Below, in pieces: positions 24,486-35,204 of a stretch of 37,246 nucleotides of DNA. How positions within the stretch are numbered: the stretch's first letter is position 1; each line of letters starts with the position of its first letter. The notes under the pieces are model-generated. The model ran no database searches. It was given only the letters and a program-made list of their open reading frames with translations, and had not been told where the DNA came from. This DNA is from an uncultured Eubacteriales bacterium (GTDB taxonomy: Bacteria > Bacillota > Clostridia > Peptostreptococcales > Anaerovoracaceae), in contig OMXT01000012.1 of assembly GCA_900315125.1 (NCBI GenBank), positions 1 through 37,246 of the forward strand, written 5' to 3'. Position numbers and translations under genes: made by a program.

Positions 24486-24514
24486 TTGACTTTAGGGGAA
24501 AGCAAGAGTAAACT
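24486..24514 (+). promoter_or_regulatory. Predicted promoter of the ferredoxin-PFOR-Nfn operon
   Basis: TTGACT (24486-24491), a 17-base spacer and TAAACT (24509-24514). It leaves a leader of about 125 bases. Confidence 0.65.
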
Positions 24515-24523
24515 TTAAATAGT

Positions 24524-24535
24524 CTTGTATACAAG
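24524..24535. promoter_or_regulatory. Palindrome at the predicted start site, candidate operator
   Basis: CTTGTATACAAG is a perfect 12-base palindrome lying at about +1 to +14 of the promoter above. The inner TTGTATACAA fits the general FadR-type GntR pattern (GT...AC). The regulator is not in the window. Confidence 0.5.
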
Positions 24536-24646
24536 AAATCGCCACAATTGCTTTGTTTATAGGGCTGTGATTTGTTTTTATCCCGGTAACATCTGTATTG
24601 GGAAAAATGATAGATCAACTATCAAGTAAAGGAGGAGTTAGTAGTT

Positions 24647-25762
24647 ATGAGTACTAATCAAGGCGGAACAGCTGCACCAAACATGGATCTCATTGCTTAT
24701 GTTTTCTGCAGCGGCGATGCTGCGGGCAAGGAGAGATTCGCAAGCTGCAGTTCCTGCAAGGAAGCTGTTGAATCAGGCTTTCAGCGCGGGGAATGCAAGA
24801 GCGGATGTGTAGGCGTAGGGTCCTGCATCCAGTCCTGCACCAGAGATGCGATGAAACTGGTTGACGGAAAGATCGTAATCGATCCTGAGAAGTGCGACGG
24901 CTGCGGCGACTGCGCCAAGGAAGACGTATGTCCCCAGGCTCTGATCAGGATGATCCCGAGAGATGCCACGAACTTTATCCCCTGTTCTTCTAAGGAAGAG
25001 GATGAGGAGAAGGTCAGAGCCACATGCGGCTATGGATGTATTGCCTGCAGTGACTGCGTCAGAGCATGTCCTGAAGGGGCAATCGAGATCGTTGACAATC
25101 ATGCTGTCATCGACTATGAGAAGTGCGTTGGATGTGTATCCTGCACCGTTAAGTGCAAGAAGAAGATCATCGTAGATACACAGCATGATCTGACCGCACT
25201 GAAAGAGAATGTTGCATTCGTAAGATGCAGCGGCGGATTCAAACCGAACAAGAAATATGAAGAACTGGGCTACACCACCTGCAAGGATGTAGTAGAGAAT
25301 GTAGATCCCAAGGAATATGACCTGTGCACCACAGGATGCACTGGTATGGGCGACTGCACCAGAGTATGCCGTTATGACGCAATCCACGTTGTAAACGGAA
25401 CAGCATATGTAGATGCAGAGAAGTGCGTCGGCTGCAGAGACTGCACCTATGCATGTCCTAAGAAGCTGATCACCATCGTTCCTTATCAGGGAATGAAACT
25501 GGTTCCCTGCTCTTCAACAGCAGATTACGAGGACAAGGCAGCGGTCTGCGACAGCGGATGCATTGCCTGCGAGGACTGCGTAAACAACTGCCCGAACGGA
25601 GCAATCTACATGGAGAAGAAGCATGCGGTCATCGATCCGGAGATCTGCGAGGACTGCAATGTATGTGAAGGTATGTGCGCAAGACTGGTTATCCGCGGAC
25701 AGGAAGTTCCGGAGTATAACTTCCTCCAGAGAGAAGCCCTTGGTCTGACGGAAGGAGAGTGA
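24647..25762 (+). CDS. Octa-[4Fe-4S] ferredoxin-like protein, tandem RnfB-type modules
   Basis: A 371-residue soluble protein with about 40 cysteines. It consists of two copies of a module of about 175 residues that resembles the C-terminal ferredoxin part of RnfB. Module 1 has cluster motifs C50-C54-C60-C64, C83-C86-C89-C95, C131-C134-C137-C141 and C160-C163-C166-C170. Module 2 repeats them at C227-C231-C237-C241, C260-C263-C266-C270, C305-C308-C311-C315 and C334-C337-C340-C344. Extra paired cysteines (21/194, 37/212, 113/288, 127/301) also match between modules. Eight [4Fe-4S] clusters are predicted. There is no membrane helix or flavin site. Start ATG follows AAAGGAGG. It is the first gene of a tight operon with PFOR and NfnAB, so it probably carries electrons between them. 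Confidence 0.88.
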   Translation: MSTNQGGTAAPNMDLIAYVFCSGDAAGKERFASCSSCKEAVESGFQRGECKSGCVGVGSCIQSCTRDAMKLVDGKIVIDPEKCDGCGDCAKEDVCPQALIRMIPRDATNFIPCSSKEEDEEKVRATCGYGCIACSDCVRACPEGAIEIVDNHAVIDYEKCVGCVSCTVKCKKKIIVDTQHDLTALKENVAFVRCSGGFKPNKKYEELGYTTCKDVVENVDPKEYDLCTTGCTGMGDCTRVCRYDAIHVVNGTAYVDAEKCVGCRDCTYACPKKLITIVPYQGMKLVPCSSTADYEDKAAVCDSGCIACEDCVNNCPNGAIYMEKKHAVIDPEICEDCNVCEGMCARLVIRGQEVPEYNFLQREALGLTEGE

Positions 25763-25767
25763 ACACT

Positions 25768-28700
25768 GTGAGAAAACTTAAGACAATGGACGGAAACGCA
25801 GCGGCCGCTCACGTAGCATATGCATTCTCTGAAGTTGCTGCTATTTATCCTATCACGCCGTCTTCTCCGATGGCTGAGAATATGGATGAATGGGTTTCCC
25901 AGGACAGAACAAATATTTTCGGTGAAAAAGTAAAGATCGTTGAGATGGAATCAGAGGGAGGCGCAGCAGGCGCTGTCCACGGTTCAGTAACAGCAGGTTC
26001 CTACACCTCCACATTTACTGCTTCCCAGGGACTCCTTCTGATGATCCCCAACATGTATAAACTGGCTGCAGAGATGACGCCGACCGTATTCCACGTAGCA
26101 GCAAGAGCCATCACGACTCATGCACTGTCTATCTTCGGCGATCATTCCGACGTTATGGCAACCCGTCAGACCGGATTCGCCATGATGTGCTCCAACAGCG
26201 TTCAGCAGGTCATGGACCTGGCAGCTGTTGCTCACCTGGCAACCATCGACGGCAACCTGCCGATGCTCCACTTCTTCGACGGATTCCGTACATCCCACGA
26301 GTATCAGAAGATCGAGACTTGGGATTATGATGATCTGAAGGAAATGGTGAACTGGGACGCAGTCCGCAAGTTCCGTGAGCATGCGCTGAACCCCAACAGA
26401 CCTCACGCCATGGGTTCTGCTGAGCAGCCGGAAGCATTTTTCCAGCACAGCGAGGCTGCAAACACCCTGGTTGACGAGACACCGGACATCATCAATAAAT
26501 ACATGGAGAAGGTCAATGCCAAGATTGGCACGGACTATAAGCCTTTCAACTATTACGGAGCACCGGACGCGAAGCACATCATCGTAGCCATGGGTTCTGT
26601 ATGTGAAGCAGCAGAAGAGCTGATCGACCACATGACGGCCAAGGGTGAGAAGGTCGGACTCGTTGAGGTTCACCTCTATCGTCCGTTTTCCACCAAATAT
26701 CTCCTGAACGTCATGCCGGAGACAGCGGAGTCTATTTCCGTACTTGACAGATGCAAGGAGCCGGGTTCCATCGGAGAGCCGCTGTACCTGGACGTATGCG
26801 CTGCTCTTAAGGGAACTAAGTTTGAGAACTGCAAGATGTACAGAGGACGTTACGGACTGGGTTCCAAGGACGTTCAGCCGGGAGACATCCTTGCTGTTTA
26901 TGAGAATATGGATGCTGCTGAGGGCAAGCCGGAGTTCACTCTGTCCATCAACGACGACGTAACCCACCTGTCCCTGACACCCAGCGAATATCCTGATACT
27001 GTTCCTGCAGGAACCAAAGCCTGCAAGTTCTGGGGACTGGGTGCTGACGGAACAGTCGGCGCCAACAAGAACAGCGTTAAGATCATCGGTGACCATACCG
27101 ATAAGAAAGTACAGGCTTACTTCCAGTATGACTCCAAGAAGTCAGGCGGCGTAACCATTTCCCACCTGCGTTTCGGAGACAAGCCGATCCAGTCTACATA
27201 TTATGTAAAACAGGCTGACTTCGTAGCATGCCATAACGCTGCATACCTTGCCAAGTATGACATGGTAGAGGACGTTAAGCCCGGCGGATTCTTCCTGCTG
27301 AACTGCCCGTGGAGCGACGAGGAACTGGAAGAGCACGTTCCCGGCAAGGTCAAGAGATACATTGCCAAGAACAACGTTCAGTTCTACACATGCGACGCAG
27401 TCAAGATCGCCAAGGAGATCGGACTCGGCGCCAAGAGGACCAATTCCGTACTTCAGGCTGCATTCTTCAAGCTTGCAGACATCATTCCCATCGAGGATGC
27501 TGAGAAGTACATGAAGGAAATGATCAAGAAGACCTACGGCAAGAAGGGTCAGAACATCGTAGACATGAACTGCGCTGCTGTAGACGCAGGTCTGAATAAC
27601 GCACACAAGGTAGAGGTACCGGCATCCTGGGCTGACGCACCGGATGACGCACCGGCAGCTAAATTAGTAGGCCGCACACCGGAGATGTCCACATTCCTGA
27701 ACGATATCCTGGTACCGATGGCTACCATGAACGGAGACAAGATCCCCGTATCTGCATACCTGACATCCGTTGACGGCGCTGAGCCTTCCGGAACAGCTGC
27801 ATTTGAGAAGAGAGGCATCGCTACCGACGTACCGGTATGGAACAAGGCAAACTGCATGCAGTGCAACCTGTGCTCCTATGTATGCCCCCACGGAGCGATC
27901 CGTCCCTTCGTACTGGACGAGTCCGAGGCTGCTGAGCTGAAGGGCGACTACCAGAAGATGAAGGGCATGAAGGACAAGTTCTTCACCATCGCAATCTCCA
28001 CAATGGACTGCACAGGATGCGGTTCCTGCGCTGAGGTATGCCCGTCCAGAAAGAAAGCTCTGGAAATGCATACTGCTGATGATGAGATCGTTCAGCCGAG
28101 CCAGGCTAAGTTCGACTACTGCTTCAGCGATGTTGAACAGAAAGAAGTACCCTTCAAGCCGTCTACCGTTAAGGGATCCCAGTTCCTGCAGCCGCTGCTT
28201 GAGTTCTCAGGCGCATGCCCGGGATGCGGAGAATCTCCTTACGCTAAGCTGATCACTCAGCTGTTCGGTGACAGGATGTACATCGCTAACGCAACAGGAT
28301 GTACATCTATTTGGGGACACAGCGCTCCGAGCACACCGTACACTGTTAATAAAGATGGCCACGGACCGGCATGGGCGAACTCCCTGTTCGAGGACAACGC
28401 TGAGTTTGGTCTTGGTATGACTATCTCCGTACAATCCCGCCGCAACGAGCTGAAATCTGCCGTTGAGAGACTGGTAGACGTAGTAGGCGTTCCTGCCAAG
28501 GCATGGCTGGCAACCATGGATGACGCGGATTCCGCTAAGGAGACCGGAGACATCCTGCTGGCTGAGTGCGAGAAGATCGCTTCCACCAATGCTGATGCGC
28601 AGTGGGTCGTTGACAACCAGGATATGCTGGGCAAACCGTCCATGTGGATCTTCGGAGGAGACGGCTGGGCATATGATATCGGCTACGGCGGACTAGACCA

Positions 28701-29292
28701 CGTCATTGCTTCCGGAAACAATGTAAACGTCATGGTATTCGATACCGAGGTTTACTCCAACACAGGCGGACAGTCCTCCAAGTCCACTCCGACCGGTGCT
28801 GTTGCCAAGTTCGCTGCTTCCGGTAAGGAAGTAAAGAAGAAGGATCTGGCACAGATCGCCATGGCTTACGGCTATGTATATGTAGCCAAGATCGCTATGG
28901 GCGCCAATCCGGAACAGGCTCTGAGAGCCCTGAGAGAAGCAGAAGCTTACGATGGACCTTCTCTGATCATCGCATATGCTCCCTGCATCAACCACGGCAT
29001 CAAGAAGGGCATGAACAAGTCCATGCTCGAGATGAAGGAAGCCGTAAGATCCGGTTACTGGAACCTGATGAGATACAATCCTGACCTGGCTGCTGCCGGC
29101 AAGAACCCGCTGTCCGTAGACAGCTACAGACCGACAGAAAGCTACAGAGACTTCCTGATGGGAGAGGTTCGTTACAATTCACTGAAGCTGAAGTTCCCTG
29201 AGAGAGCAGAGAAGCTGTTCAACCAGGCAGAGCAGGAAGCAACAGACAGATATAACAACCTGGTACACCAGAAGAAGAGCTTTGATAACTAG
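25768..29292 (+). CDS. nifJ: Pyruvate:ferredoxin (flavodoxin) oxidoreductase
   Basis: A 1174-residue single-chain PFOR that oxidises pyruvate and CoA to acetyl-CoA and CO2, passing two electrons to ferredoxin. YPITPSSPMAE (27-37) begins the pyrimidine-binding domain. The ferredoxin domain has C696-C699-C702-C706 and C748-C751-C754-C758. The proximal cluster cysteines are C817, C820, C845 and C1073, the same spacing as in the well-studied Desulfovibrio enzyme. The thiamine-diphosphate site is GGDGWAYDIG (963-972) with NTGGQ (998-1002). GTG at 25768 is chosen since GAAGGAG (25751-25757) is ten bases ahead; the GTG at 25759 overlaps the upstream stop and is too close. Operon neighbours are the octa-cluster ferredoxin and NfnAB. 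Confidence 0.97.
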   Translation: MRKLKTMDGNAAAAHVAYAFSEVAAIYPITPSSPMAENMDEWVSQDRTNIFGEKVKIVEMESEGGAAGAVHGSVTAGSYTSTFTASQGLLLMIPNMYKLAAEMTPTVFHVAARAITTHALSIFGDHSDVMATRQTGFAMMCSNSVQQVMDLAAVAHLATIDGNLPMLHFFDGFRTSHEYQKIETWDYDDLKEMVNWDAVRKFREHALNPNRPHAMGSAEQPEAFFQHSEAANTLVDETPDIINKYMEKVNAKIGTDYKPFNYYGAPDAKHIIVAMGSVCEAAEELIDHMTAKGEKVGLVEVHLYRPFSTKYLLNVMPETAESISVLDRCKEPGSIGEPLYLDVCAALKGTKFENCKMYRGRYGLGSKDVQPGDILAVYENMDAAEGKPEFTLSINDDVTHLSLTPSEYPDTVPAGTKACKFWGLGADGTVGANKNSVKIIGDHTDKKVQAYFQYDSKKSGGVTISHLRFGDKPIQSTYYVKQADFVACHNAAYLAKYDMVEDVKPGGFFLLNCPWSDEELEEHVPGKVKRYIAKNNVQFYTCDAVKIAKEIGLGAKRTNSVLQAAFFKLADIIPIEDAEKYMKEMIKKTYGKKGQNIVDMNCAAVDAGLNNAHKVEVPASWADAPDDAPAAKLVGRTPEMSTFLNDILVPMATMNGDKIPVSAYLTSVDGAEPSGTAAFEKRGIATDVPVWNKANCMQCNLCSYVCPHGAIRPFVLDESEAAELKGDYQKMKGMKDKFFTIAISTMDCTGCGSCAEVCPSRKKALEMHTADDEIVQPSQAKFDYCFSDVEQKEVPFKPSTVKGSQFLQPLLEFSGACPGCGESPYAKLITQLFGDRMYIANATGCTSIWGHSAPSTPYTVNKDGHGPAWANSLFEDNAEFGLGMTISVQSRRNELKSAVERLVDVVGVPAKAWLATMDDADSAKETGDILLAECEKIASTNADAQWVVDNQDMLGKPSMWIFGGDGWAYDIGYGGLDHVIASGNNVNVMVFDTEVYSNTGGQSSKSTPTGAVAKFAASGKEVKKKDLAQIAMAYGYVYVAKIAMGANPEQALRALREAEAYDGPSLIIAYAPCINHGIKKGMNKSMLEMKEAVRSGYWNLMRYNPDLAAAGKNPLSVDSYRPTESYRDFLMGEVRYNSLKLKFPERAEKLFNQAEQEATDRYNNLVHQKKSFDN

Positions 29293-29309
29293 GAAAGGAG
29301 GATTGAACG

Positions 29310-30164
29310 ATGAAAAGGTTTGAGATTTTAAGCAAAAGAAAACTTAATGATAACATCACCTGGCTCGTTATCAGCGCACCGCTGGTAGCTCGCAAGGCAA
29401 GACCGGGTCAGTTCATCATCCTTCGTACCGACGAATATGGTGAGAGAATTCCTCTCACCATGGCCGGACACGATTCTGAAAAGGGAACGATCGACCTGAT
29501 CTACGCTGCAGTAGGCAGAACCACCATGCTCATGGACCAGATGGAAGTAGGAGACTGCTTCGCAGATATCGTAGGGCCTCTGGGCAAGCCGACCAACATG
29601 GAAGGCCTGAAGAAGGTCTGCGTTGTCGGAGGAGGAACAGGAAATGCCCTGGCTTATCCTCTGGCTGTAGGTATGCATGACCACGGCATCCACGTAGACA
29701 TGATCACAGGATTCAAGAACAAAGACCTGGTCATCCTGCAGGACGAGTTTGCTGCCGGAACAGACCGTCTGTTCCTCGTAACCGATGACGGCTCCGCCGG
29801 AGAGAAGATGTTCACCACCCAGAAGCTGGAAGAACTGATCAACGGCGGCGAGGAATATGATGAGATCGTTGCGATCGGACCTCCGATCATGATGAAGTTC
29901 ACCTGCCAGATCGCTGAGAAATATGGAATCAAGTCCATCGCATCACTGACTGCATACATGATCGATGGAACCGGAATGTGCGGCGGATGCCGCTGCAACA
30001 TCGGCGGAGAAGACAAGTTCGTCTGCGTCGACGGACCGGAATTCGACGGATCTTTGGTTGACTGGGACGAACTGATCCAGAGAAGCGCATACTACTCCGA
30101 GCAGGAGAAGTATGACAGGGAGCACGTTTGTCGCCTGACAGGAGGTGTACGTTACAATGATTAA
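29310..30164 (+). CDS. nfnA: NfnA-like ferredoxin:NADP+ oxidoreductase alpha subunit
   Basis: A 284-residue FAD- and NAD-binding protein of the dihydroorotate dehydrogenase electron-transfer/SudB type. RIPLTM (46-51) is the FAD motif, GGGTGNA (107-113) the NAD-binding loop, and C224, C227 and C239 around CGGCRC bind the [2Fe-2S] cluster; in the NfnA/SudB family an Asp often serves as fourth ligand. C229 is an extra cysteine next to this site. With the NfnB-like product it would form the electron-bifurcating NADH-dependent reduced ferredoxin:NADP+ oxidoreductase; sulfide dehydrogenase (SudAB) is the main alternative. AAAGGAGG precedes the ATG, 17 bases after nifJ. Confidence 0.9.
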   Translation: MKRFEILSKRKLNDNITWLVISAPLVARKARPGQFIILRTDEYGERIPLTMAGHDSEKGTIDLIYAAVGRTTMLMDQMEVGDCFADIVGPLGKPTNMEGLKKVCVVGGGTGNALAYPLAVGMHDHGIHVDMITGFKNKDLVILQDEFAAGTDRLFLVTDDGSAGEKMFTTQKLEELINGGEEYDEIVAIGPPIMMKFTCQIAEKYGIKSIASLTAYMIDGTGMCGGCRCNIGGEDKFVCVDGPEFDGSLVDWDELIQRSAYYSEQEKYDREHVCRLTGGVRYND

Positions 30165-31548
30165 TCTGAGAAGCACTAAGAATCCCATGCCGGAGCAGGA
30201 TCCTAATGTTCGTAATAAGAACTTCCTGGAAGTAACCCTTGGATATACTCCTGAAATGGCAGTAAGTGAAGCAATGCGCTGTGTCAAGTGCCGGAAGAAG
30301 CCCTGCATGAGCGGCTGCCCGGTAATGATCAAGATTCCTGATTTCGTAGCTAAGGTTGCTGAAGGCGACTTTGAGGCTGCATATCAGATCATCAGCGAGG
30401 ACAGCTCTCTGCCTGCAATCTGCGGCCGTGTATGCCCGCAGGAGAACCAGTGCGAAGGACAGTGCGTCCGCGGCGTGAAGGGCGAGCCCGTATCCATCGG
30501 ACGTCTGGAGCGTTTCGTCGCTGACTGGCACGCTGCAAACTACGGCGATGAGGAGATCAAACCTGCTGAGGGCAACGGCCACAAGGTTGCCATCGTAGGA
30601 GCAGGCCCTGCAGGACTTGCCTGCGCAGGCGACCTGATTAACAAGGGATATGAGGTTACCGTATTTGAATCTCTCCATAAGACCGGCGGCGTTCTGGTCT
30701 ATGGTATCCCCCAGTTCCGTCTCCCCAAGGAGATCGTAGCTGCTGAAGTTGCCAAGCTGGAGAAGAAGGGCGTTAAGTTCATCACCGACGCGATCATCGG
30801 AAGAGCCATCACCGTTGACGAGCTGATCAAGGATGAGGGATTTGAGTCTGTATTCGTAGGAACAGGCGCAGGACTTCCTTCCTTCATGCATATCCCCGGC
30901 GAGAATCTGCTGGGCGTTGTATCCGCCAATGAGTACCTGACCAGAATCAACCTGATGAAGGCTTATAAGGACGAATACGACACACCGATCATGCATGCGA
31001 AGAAGATCGCTGTCGTAGGCGGCGGAAACGTAGCGATGGACGCTGCAAGATGCGCCAAGAGAATGGGCGCAGATGACGTTTACGTCATTTACCGCCGTTC
31101 CGCAGCGGAGATCCCTGCAAGAGCAGAAGAGATCCACCATGCCGTAGAGGAAGGAATCATCTTCCACTATCTGACCAACCCGGTTCAGATCCTCGGCGAT
31201 GACAAGGGTAATGTTACAGGAATCGAGTGTGTCAAGATGGAACTGGGCGCTCCCGATGCTTCCGGCAGACGCCGTCCTGTAGCTATTGAAGGATCCAACT
31301 TCGTAGAGGATGTAGATTACGTTATCATGGCTATCGGAACCAAGCTGAACAAGCTGATCCTCGACACGACCGAGAATCTGGCTGCCAATGAGCGCGGCGG
31401 AATCGGAACTGACGAGAAGGCAAACACAAACCGTCCGGAGATCTTTGCAGGCGGAGACGCTGTAACAGGCGCAGCCACTGTAATCAAGGCAATGGGCGCA
31501 GGTAAGGTTGCCGCTGCCGGAATCGACGAGTATCTGCAGTCTAAATAA
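30157..31548 (+). CDS. nfnB: NfnB-like ferredoxin:NADP+ oxidoreductase beta subunit (GltD-like)
   Basis: A 463-residue flavoprotein of the glutamate synthase small subunit/NfnB family. The N-terminal Fe-S part has C42-C45-C50-C54 and C89-C93-C99-C103, binding two [4Fe-4S] clusters. GAGPAG (148-153) begins the FAD domain and GGGNVAMDAAR marks the NADPH domain. No glutamate synthase large subunit is near, so NADPH formation rather than glutamate synthesis is likely. ATG at 30157 overlaps the last eight bases of the alpha gene and follows GGAGGTG, a sign of coupled translation. Together the two subunits use reduced ferredoxin and NADH to make NADPH. Confidence 0.92.
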   Translation: MINLRSTKNPMPEQDPNVRNKNFLEVTLGYTPEMAVSEAMRCVKCRKKPCMSGCPVMIKIPDFVAKVAEGDFEAAYQIISEDSSLPAICGRVCPQENQCEGQCVRGVKGEPVSIGRLERFVADWHAANYGDEEIKPAEGNGHKVAIVGAGPAGLACAGDLINKGYEVTVFESLHKTGGVLVYGIPQFRLPKEIVAAEVAKLEKKGVKFITDAIIGRAITVDELIKDEGFESVFVGTGAGLPSFMHIPGENLLGVVSANEYLTRINLMKAYKDEYDTPIMHAKKIAVVGGGNVAMDAARCAKRMGADDVYVIYRRSAAEIPARAEEIHHAVEEGIIFHYLTNPVQILGDDKGNVTGIECVKMELGAPDASGRRRPVAIEGSNFVEDVDYVIMAIGTKLNKLILDTTENLAANERGGIGTDEKANTNRPEIFAGGDAVTGAATVIKAMGAGKVAAAGIDEYLQSK

Positions 31549-31571
31549 ACAGGCAAATATCGCATAATAAA

Positions 31572-31614
31572 AGCACCTGCTTCAGGATCACGTCCCGGAG
31601 CAGGTGCTCTTTTT
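31572..31614 (+). terminator. Terminator of the ferredoxin-PFOR-Nfn operon
   Basis: AGCACCTGCT (31572-31581) pairs perfectly with AGCAGGTGCT (31599-31608), followed by CTTTTT. Confidence 0.9.
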
Positions 31615-33404: not shown

Positions 33405-35204
33405 ATGAAACAATTACTGACAGGCGACGAGGCTATCGCGAGAGGCGCCTATGAGGCGGGCGTACGTCACGCCGCCGCGTATCCCGGTACCCCGAGCACG
33501 GAGATCCTGGAGAATATAGCGAAATACGATGAGATCTACTCAGAGTGGGCGCCTAACGAGAAGGTCGCCATGGAGTCTGCCATCGGCGCGTCCATGGCAG
33601 GAGCCCGTTCCATGGCTTCCATGAAGCACGTGGGCGTCAACGTTGCGGCAGATCCTCTGATGACATTTGCATATATGGGCGTAAATGGAGGCGCGGTCAT
33701 CGTCACAGCCGATGAACCGGGCATGTTTTCGTCCCAGAATGAGCAGGACAACAGAAATTATGCCAAGATGGGCAAGTTTCCCATGCTGGAGCCGGCGGAC
33801 AGCCAGGACTGCCTGGACATGGTCAAGGCAGCCTATGAGATGTCGGAGAAATACAACGTGATCTTCATGGTCCGCATGGTAACCAGGGTCTGCCACTCCA
33901 AGTCCCTGGTGGAAGTAGGGGAGAGGGCAGACGTTCCTGTTAAGGAATGGCATCCCGATCCTATGAAGTACGTGGCTCTGCCGGCTCATTCCCGCGTCCT
34001 CCGGGTGCAGATCGAGGACCGCACGAAGAAGCTGGAAGAAGCCAGCGAGAATTCCCCCTTCAACTTCGCCGCATATACAGATAAAACGCTGGATGGTGAG
34101 AAGGTGGGCGTCATTGCTTCCGGCGTCAGCTATTATTATGCACAGGAAGTATTCGGCGAGAATGCGTCTTATCTCAAGCTGGGATTCACCAACCCCATGC
34201 CGAAGAATCTGATCACAGAATTCTGCAGCAAAATGGATAAGGTCTATATCGTTGAAGAGGATGATCCATATATTGAGGAATACTGCCAGCGCCTGGGATT
34301 TACCGTCCACGGCAAGGACACATTCCCGCCCTACGGCGAGATGACGCCGGACGTGCTCAGAAAGAGCCTGACTGGATCCACCCTTCCAGAAGTGGAGTAC
34401 GACCACAGCCTGGTGAACCAGCGGCCGCCTTCACTCTGCGCGGGATGTCCCCACAGGGGCCTGTTCTACCGCCTGGGCAAGCGGAAGGATATCATGATCT
34501 CCGGCGACATCGGATGCTACACCCTGGCTGCGGGCGCGCCCTATAATGCCATGAATTCTACGGTATGCATGGGAGCATCCATCTCTGTGGGCCACGGCGC
34601 CCAGCAGGTATTCAACCGGGCAGGGATCAAGAGGAAGGTCGTTACCGTACTGGGTGACTCCACATTCTTCCATACCGGCGTGGAATCCCTGATCAACACG
34701 GTTTATAACAACAGCAATACCATAAACATTATCCTGGATAACCGGATCACGGGAATGACCGGCCATCAGCAGAACCCTGGAACGGGATTCACGGTCAAGA
34801 TGGAGCCGGCTCATATGATCAATATCGAGGAGCTGGTGAAGGCCATCGGCATCAAGCATGTGAAGGTGATCGACCCCAACGACCTGAAGGCGGTAGATGA
34901 GGCACTGGACGCGTTTATGGACCTGGAAGAGCCTTCTGTCATCATCACTCGTTGGCCCTGCGTCCTGAAGAAATTCTCCCAGGCAGACCTGGATGAGTTT
35001 GAGAACCTGTTCGCGACCAGGGACATCGTAGACGCGGATAAGTGCATCGGCTGCAAGAAGTGCCAGCAGACTGGCTGCCCGGCCCTGAACTACAATGCAG
35101 AGACGAAGAAGATCACGATAAACAGGGCAGACTGCGTAGGCTGCGACGTCTGCATGCAGGTGTGCCCCACAGGCGCGATCATCAAGGAAGGCGAGGTGAA
35201 GTAG
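33405..35204 (+). CDS. iorA: Indolepyruvate:ferredoxin oxidoreductase alpha subunit
   Basis: A 599-residue thiamine-diphosphate enzyme that decarboxylates aryl-2-oxo acids (indolepyruvate, phenylpyruvate, hydroxyphenylpyruvate) to aryl-acetyl-CoA with ferredoxin as acceptor. YPGTPSTEILE near residue 27 opens the pyrimidine domain. The thiamine-diphosphate region is SGDIGCYTLAAG and LDNRITGMTGHQQNPGTG. Two [4Fe-4S] sites close the protein: C547-C550-C553-C558 and C577-C580-C583-C587. GAGAGGTG precedes the ATG at 33405; a second ATG four bases earlier is in another frame. The beta gene follows two bases after its stop. Confidence 0.95.
   Translation: MKQLLTGDEAIARGAYEAGVRHAAAYPGTPSTEILENIAKYDEIYSEWAPNEKVAMESAIGASMAGARSMASMKHVGVNVAADPLMTFAYMGVNGGAVIVTADEPGMFSSQNEQDNRNYAKMGKFPMLEPADSQDCLDMVKAAYEMSEKYNVIFMVRMVTRVCHSKSLVEVGERADVPVKEWHPDPMKYVALPAHSRVLRVQIEDRTKKLEEASENSPFNFAAYTDKTLDGEKVGVIASGVSYYYAQEVFGENASYLKLGFTNPMPKNLITEFCSKMDKVYIVEEDDPYIEEYCQRLGFTVHGKDTFPPYGEMTPDVLRKSLTGSTLPEVEYDHSLVNQRPPSLCAGCPHRGLFYRLGKRKDIMISGDIGCYTLAAGAPYNAMNSTVCMGASISVGHGAQQVFNRAGIKRKVVTVLGDSTFFHTGVESLINTVYNNSNTINIILDNRITGMTGHQQNPGTGFTVKMEPAHMINIEELVKAIGIKHVKVIDPNDLKAVDEALDAFMDLEEPSVIITRWPCVLKKFSQADLDEFENLFATRDIVDADKCIGCKKCQQTGCPALNYNAETKKITINRADCVGCDVCMQVCPTGAIIKEGEVK

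Follow-up and report, generated by a model that had tools for sequence, protein, structure and literature searches.

The 37,246-nucleotide window analysed here (contig OMXT01000012.1 of assembly GCA_900315125.1) stems from an uncultured Eubacteriales bacterium whose genome comprises 2.3 Mb in 101 contigs and is 98% complete. It contains an operon of four genes encoding a soluble multi-cluster ferredoxin, a single-chain pyruvate:ferredoxin oxidoreductase (PFOR) and both subunits of an NfnAB-type enzyme. This operon is conserved and is kept by many gut and rumen Lachnospiraceae. We favour, with moderate confidence, the view that it provides a route on which electrons from pyruvate leave PFOR, cross the multi-cluster protein and arrive at NfnB, which hands them to NADP+. 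The conserved unit consists of the multi-cluster protein, PFOR and the NADP reductase, with NADH input being optional. The four genes are:

24647..25762, plus strand: multi-cluster ferredoxin gene, 371 amino acids, from the open reading frame call; two RnfB FdII+III modules (approximately residues 14-186 and 187-356)
25768..29292, plus strand: single-chain PFOR, 1174 amino acids, GTG start (TIGR02176; 6cin_A)
29310..30164, plus strand: NfnA-type FAD/[2Fe-2S] NAD(H) subunit, 284 amino acids (NF004862; 5jca_S, 4ylf_A)
30157..31548, plus strand: NfnB-type FAD/2[4Fe-4S] NADP(H) subunit, 463 amino acids (TIGR01316; 4ylf_B, 5jca_L)

These open reading frame calls agree with an earlier note on this DNA in the number and coordinates of the genes, in the two gaps (5 and 17 bases) and in the 8-base overlap of nfnA and nfnB. 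An alternative GTG start at 25759 would make the PFOR gene overlap the multi-cluster gene.

The gene order, which the earlier note had named as a means of checking its reading, extends far beyond this genome. The locus set comprised 82 entries, from which five duplicates and two contig-end fragments were removed; one of the resulting 75 is cut inside the multi-cluster gene, hence 74 were assessable. PFOR follows the multi-cluster gene in all 74 (70 by tblastn, four by reading of contig ends), and NfnB lies beyond PFOR in all 63 loci that are long enough, 44 of them with and 19 without NfnA. Where NfnA is present its gene overlaps that of NfnB by 8 bases (44/44). The PFOR frames of L156 and L167 and the NfnB frames of L054 and L157 are broken or split, through either sequencing error or decay; these loci were counted for gene order and excluded by length filters from the trees of the genes concerned. 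A fusion of the multi-cluster gene with PFOR, suggested by a 1558-amino-acid frame in G036 and G111, was rejected as the two genes merely share a reading frame and are separated by a TAG codon.

Within the family, 56 of the 247 genomes sampled carry the multi-cluster gene, distributed over 19 of 92 genera; it is also present in four of 391 genomes sampled across the class, two of which lie outside the family. A scan of species genomes gave 24 strong matches among the best 80 loci, with record titles that include Lachnospiraceae, Eubacterium, Ruminiclostridium, Oscillospiraceae and one Aeromonadales. The latter record (L053, CACZLZ010000027.1) carries an NfnB-only operon that falls within a Clostridia clade, reflecting either transfer or mis-binning. 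Plasmid records contained only RnfB-like partial matches to the multi-cluster protein, and PADLOC returned no result.

The multi-cluster protein contains 40 cysteines, 20 per half, which are invariant across 63 aligned relatives. Its first half aligns with the second, and all 20 cysteines of the second half are in register with RnfB of Clostridium tetanomorphum (7zc6_B). In the structure of that protein the same 20 cysteines of the FdII+III module hold five clusters, and the clusters of RnfB form a semicircle at distances of 9-10.5 Å (PMC9588780). Because of the 40 invariant cysteines and the five-cluster module, the window protein is predicted to carry ten [4Fe-4S] clusters, and the count of eight given in the earlier note was rejected as too low. 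The proposed doubling of an RnfB-type module devoid of its membrane part was borne out. No membrane helix is present in the window protein, whose chain starts only 14 residues before the module; in the predicted structure residues 1-10 have a confidence score (pLDDT) below 50, and secondary structure begins with a strand at residues 15-19. The cysteine count, the gene order and the trees of the halves are independent of where the start of this first gene is set. A comparison of charge between the two halves, or between NfnB types, gave nothing clear.

RnfB is the closest relative of the multi-cluster protein in sequence and fold, and the likeness extends to A. woodii RnfB (9eri_B), in the FdII+III module with its 20 cysteines and five clusters. 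The family differs from RnfB by the tandem arrangement of modules, the lack of a membrane helix and the location of the gene beside those of PFOR and NfnB. Curated RnfB models were not reached (NF005503, 192 bits versus 252; NF041836, 146 versus 445), nor was the VhuB polyferredoxin model NF045874 (73 bits versus a cut-off of 600). Polyferredoxins of the MvhB type from methanogens are likewise soluble proteins with many [4Fe-4S] clusters; MvhB holds 12 clusters, was observed bound to HdrA with clusters about 9.8 Å apart and serves as a wire between redox enzymes (PMC12350162). By contrast, its partners are different ones and the sequence match is weak (9sw6_G, E of only 2e-16, best over residues 76-158).

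Curated NCBIfam models above their cut-offs uphold the identification of the remaining products as a single-chain PFOR and both NfnAB-like subunits, and the Pfam domains concur. The PFOR scores 1730 bits with TIGR02176 over residues 4-1167 (cut-off 911) and 1509 bits with 6cin_A. NfnA exceeds the cut-off of NF004862, and an aspartate and three cysteines align with 5jca_S and 4ylf_A, an Asp(Cys)3 ligand set for the [2Fe-2S] cluster being given in the title of a cited reference. NfnB exceeds the cut-off of TIGR01316 (NfnB/GltA-type) and matches 4ylf_B (556 bits) and 5jca_L. In 34 aligned NfnB rows the eight cysteines of the N-terminal domain and a YRR...PA motif are invariant. This motif is one that binds NADP. 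Both subunits of the window enzyme thus possess their cofactor motifs.

The earlier note had included NADH in the proposed route. This part did not hold, since NfnA is missing from the 19 complete loci mentioned above and the conserved unit consequently excludes NADH input; in the family sample two genomes, G152 and G042, have NfnB only, and neither contains a close NfnA anywhere (E≤1e-60). Another NfnB-only locus is L045, from the record of the cultured carrier Lachnospiraceae bacterium AC2029. The stand-alone NfnB of such linked loci retains the motif of NADP type as well as the eight cysteines of its N-terminal domain. A model for these loci is CAC0764 of C. acetobutylicum, an NfnB homologue that stands alone and acts as a ferredoxin:NADP+ reductase without bifurcation (PMC9365771). 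It differs in being monocistronic, and the passages of that study on it mention neither a PFOR nor a multi-cluster gene as its neighbour. Given that NfnA varies and that a stand-alone NfnB homologue reduces NADP+, the common denominator of the loci is NADP+ reduction and not the use of NADH.

Many relatives carry an additional FdI-like domain upstream of the two modules (44 of 71 that are readable; 43 recognized by pattern and L156 by eye). It spans about 50-60 residues and its five cysteines are kept in 43/43 rows. It occurs in 33 of 43 NfnA-containing loci, four of 17 NfnB-only loci and, with L156 counted, seven of 11 loci in which no third gene can be seen. Pfam FeS (PF04060) matched seven of the eight FdI-bearing relatives scanned (E 9e-5 to 9e-3, all below the curated cut-off). 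The window protein gave no PF04060 match up to E 0.1, and the 100 codons upstream of its gene hold no remnant of FdI in three frames. Comparison of L118, L119 and the window with L120 showed that within the window's genus the domain is missing in the window, G230 and G174 and present in G142 after the same start context. Several other lineages lack it as well. In RnfB, FdI has been proposed to be a swinging, mobile carrier (PMC9588780). With its FdI-like domain the protein would hold eleven clusters. Based on this domain and the two modules, the family looks like RnfB reduced to its soluble part, in which the main module has been doubled, and the lineage of the window looks like one that lost the swinging part.

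Relatives of the window PFOR that lack the multi-cluster gene are informative for its association with NfnB. Among the PFORs listed at ≥63% identity, 31 have no detected multi-cluster gene, two of which (G203, G163) are cut by a contig end. In 26 of the remaining 29 neither NfnA nor a close NfnB adjoins PFOR. These 26 include L213, with a 39% NfnB-like stretch 2.7 kb away, and L207 and L210, for which about 0.2 kb downstream is readable; in their close kin L208 and L209 more of the downstream stretch is available and contains none. The multi-cluster protein therefore shows a tendency to occur only where NfnB adjoins PFOR. A general electron store, in which the protein would take electrons from PFOR as a ferredoxin of high capacity, buffer them for hydrogenase, Rnf and NfnB and reside in the operon only since PFOR is its main donor, would account for the position of the gene next to PFOR wherever this is readable, and for the occurrence of small ferredoxin, Rnf and [FeFe]-hydrogenase in the same genomes. 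The tie to NfnB beside PFOR, rather than to PFOR alone, speaks against such a store, and we regard it as rather unlikely.

PFOR trees place the forms without the multi-cluster gene at several scattered positions inside the PFOR clade. In G201, a member of the window's genus, PFOR falls inside the window's group (100/98) and both the multi-cluster gene and NfnAB are missing. A PFOR clade exclusive to the multi-cluster gene, seen in an early tree, was a sampling effect that the wider PFOR set overturned. The multi-cluster gene and the adjacency of NfnB each change four to five times on the PFOR tree. Because the trait is so strongly clustered, raw counts overstate independence. Independent pairs point in the same direction in about 2.6 to 2.7 of three supported pairs and never in the opposite one. 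The PFOR trees were thinned, eight near-copies being dropped in one and 37 rows being chosen in the other.

Three genomes of one genus (G004, G093, G218) keep PFOR-NfnA-NfnB without the multi-cluster gene. Replacement of their NfnAB by a different one was considered, as their NfnB groups with non-linked NfnB, and was dropped as a claim because a tree that constrains this NfnB to its genus mates is not rejected (approximately unbiased (AU) test, p 0.054) and because NfnA of two of the three (L174 was not extracted) lies inside the linked clade (AU p 0.30). The stem of NfnA from L175 and L176 (G093 and G218) measures 0.51 versus 0.14 for genus mates, and this length may reflect loss of a partner. 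In one NfnB tree 29 rows were dropped and in another L188 and L191 were skipped; 14 rows were dropped from the NfnA tree, from which L174 and L188-L192 were skipped, the skipped loci having no clean frame.

The case for a private wire between PFOR and NfnB draws on gene order and joint presence in sequence data, and several observations weigh against it. The three operons just described imply that the multi-cluster protein is not essential to the pairing of PFOR with NfnAB, and within this genus it is dispensable. The tree-corrected association involves only three supported independent pairs (median p 0.25), which puts significance out of reach; it is consistent in direction and too small to be significant. 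A gene for small ferredoxin scored above the curated cut-off in 29/29 genomes checked, so that PFOR and NfnB could still use small ferredoxin, and its replacement by the multi-cluster protein was ruled out. Together with the three operons this makes the term "dedicated", applied to the wire in the earlier note, too strong. Furthermore, no genuine fused protein was found, and 48 of 56 carriers possess the Rnf membrane subunit, making delivery of electrons to Rnf possible.

The same 48 carriers rule out that the multi-cluster protein replaces Rnf, and they are compatible with an adaptor between PFOR and Rnf, in which the RnfB relative would dock on Rnf and electrons from pyruvate would feed the Rnf pump. 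Kinship to RnfB and the FdI-like domain of many members are in line with that function. However, the Rnf membrane subunit is not seen in eight of 56 carriers (some of these genomes being incomplete), most non-carriers have it as well (129/191 by subtraction, from 177 of 247 genomes of the family), and it is NfnB that accompanies the multi-cluster gene in every complete locus. An Rnf adaptor thus appears improbable.

For the route to NADP+ that we prefer, the following sequence of events is proposed. Enzymes of the PFOR family oxidize pyruvate to acetyl-CoA and CO2, as the window's PFOR presumably does. Its surface clusters would reduce one half of the ten-cluster protein, along which electrons would run to the other half. 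The latter would pass them to the distal cluster of NfnB, close to which docking studies place ferredoxin (PMC6405883), and the FAD of NfnB would reduce NADP+. With NfnA present, as in the window, the pair would be completed by an electron from NADH, through the confurcation known for Nfn. Where NfnA is missing, NfnB would act as a plain ferredoxin:NADP+ reductase like CAC0764. The FdI-like domain may serve as an extra N-terminal shuttle in many relatives, with the lineage of the window operating without it. Here we infer the loading of the clusters, the direction of flow, the docking to PFOR and NfnB, and a preference over free small ferredoxin.

Flow in the opposite direction, with NfnB(A) oxidizing NADPH and the wire supplying low-potential electrons to PFOR as a pyruvate synthase, is conceivable as Nfn and PFOR are reversible in principle. 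We consider it very unlikely: the NfnB-only loci, if CAC0764-like, could not raise electrons of NADPH to the required potential by bifurcation, and [FeFe]-hydrogenase, found in 190 of 247 family genomes and matched twice in that of the window, points to fermentation.

A more far-reaching version of the preferred route, which we put forward tentatively and consider somewhat doubtful, is that a stable complex unites PFOR with the multi-cluster protein, NfnB and in some cases NfnA, and that it channels the electrons of pyruvate to NADP+ past the free ferredoxin pool. On the same uncertain footing, such a complex would be a bacterial pyruvate:NADP+ oxidoreductase made of separate subunits, the soluble part of RnfB being reused as its wire. 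In Euglena and Cryptosporidium, pyruvate:NADP+ oxidoreductase consists of one fused chain that leads from pyruvate to NADPH. It catalyses the same net reaction as is proposed here, whereas the present system would divide the task among several proteins and employ another flavoprotein. The occurrence of PFOR next to nfn is no novelty as such: a figure legend in a review already names PFOR as one of the genes shown close to nfn in certain microbes, and section 6 of that review names no multi-cluster protein (PMC6405883). No published description of the set of multi-cluster, PFOR and NfnB genes was found by full-text searches of a library with few subscription journals, judged by titles and openings of abstracts.

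Putative control sites of the operon are as follows:

24486..24514, plus strand: promoter-like site TTGACT-17-TAAACT, from a scan, with similar sites in relatives
24524..24535, no strand assigned: perfect palindrome CTTGTATACAAG, a possible operator right after the expected transcription start, noted for GTATAC enrichment upstream
24630..24637, plus strand: ribosome-binding site AGGAGGAG, by direct reading
31572..31614, plus strand: intrinsic terminator, a hairpin at 31572-31608 followed by a T run, from folding versus shuffles

The strong terminator of the earlier note was confirmed (-26.5 kcal/mol, z -5.7, none of 200 shuffles equally good). Its claim of a single promoter fared less clearly: the scan on its own found no excess of sites (seven versus 7.5 expected by chance), while similar sites do lie upstream in relatives. 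TTGACT followed by a stretch of the AGTAA/AGTAG type precedes the operon in two of three aligned same-genus relatives, the stretch of the third starting inside the gene. The same pattern precedes PFOR in three relatives without the multi-cluster gene, and a promoter-like stretch of this type precedes PFOR of G201. In 30 of 71 loci a GTATAC lies in the 400 bases that precede the set start, compared with about 7.5% of random 400-base stretches from the same loci; the true start of the multi-cluster gene lies further upstream in many loci, so that distances shift, and label B of this survey also takes in loci with no visible third gene. GTATAC is also found upstream of several stand-alone PFORs. 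The palindrome CTTGTATACAAG resembles the GntR operator of Bacillus subtilis. About 1.9 kb beyond the operon, a gene at 33405-35204 with POR_N, TPP_enzyme_C and 4Fe-4S domains in its product reads, by our naming, as an indolepyruvate ferredoxin oxidoreductase alpha-like gene.

Anaerobes are usually drawn with one pool of small ferredoxin common to all enzymes. If the proposal is true, the conserved private wire that joins PFOR to an NADP reductase would assign some of the electrons of pyruvate to NADPH by hardware. Glucose-6-phosphate dehydrogenase was found in none of the 247 sampled genomes of the family (nine of 14 control genomes were positive), and entry to NADPH through the oxidative pentose phosphate pathway thus seems to be missing in this sample. 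For that reason the route may be a main source of NADPH in common gut and rumen bacteria. Within one genus the complete set, operons that lack the wire and PFOR by itself all occur naturally, so that the idea can be put to a direct test.

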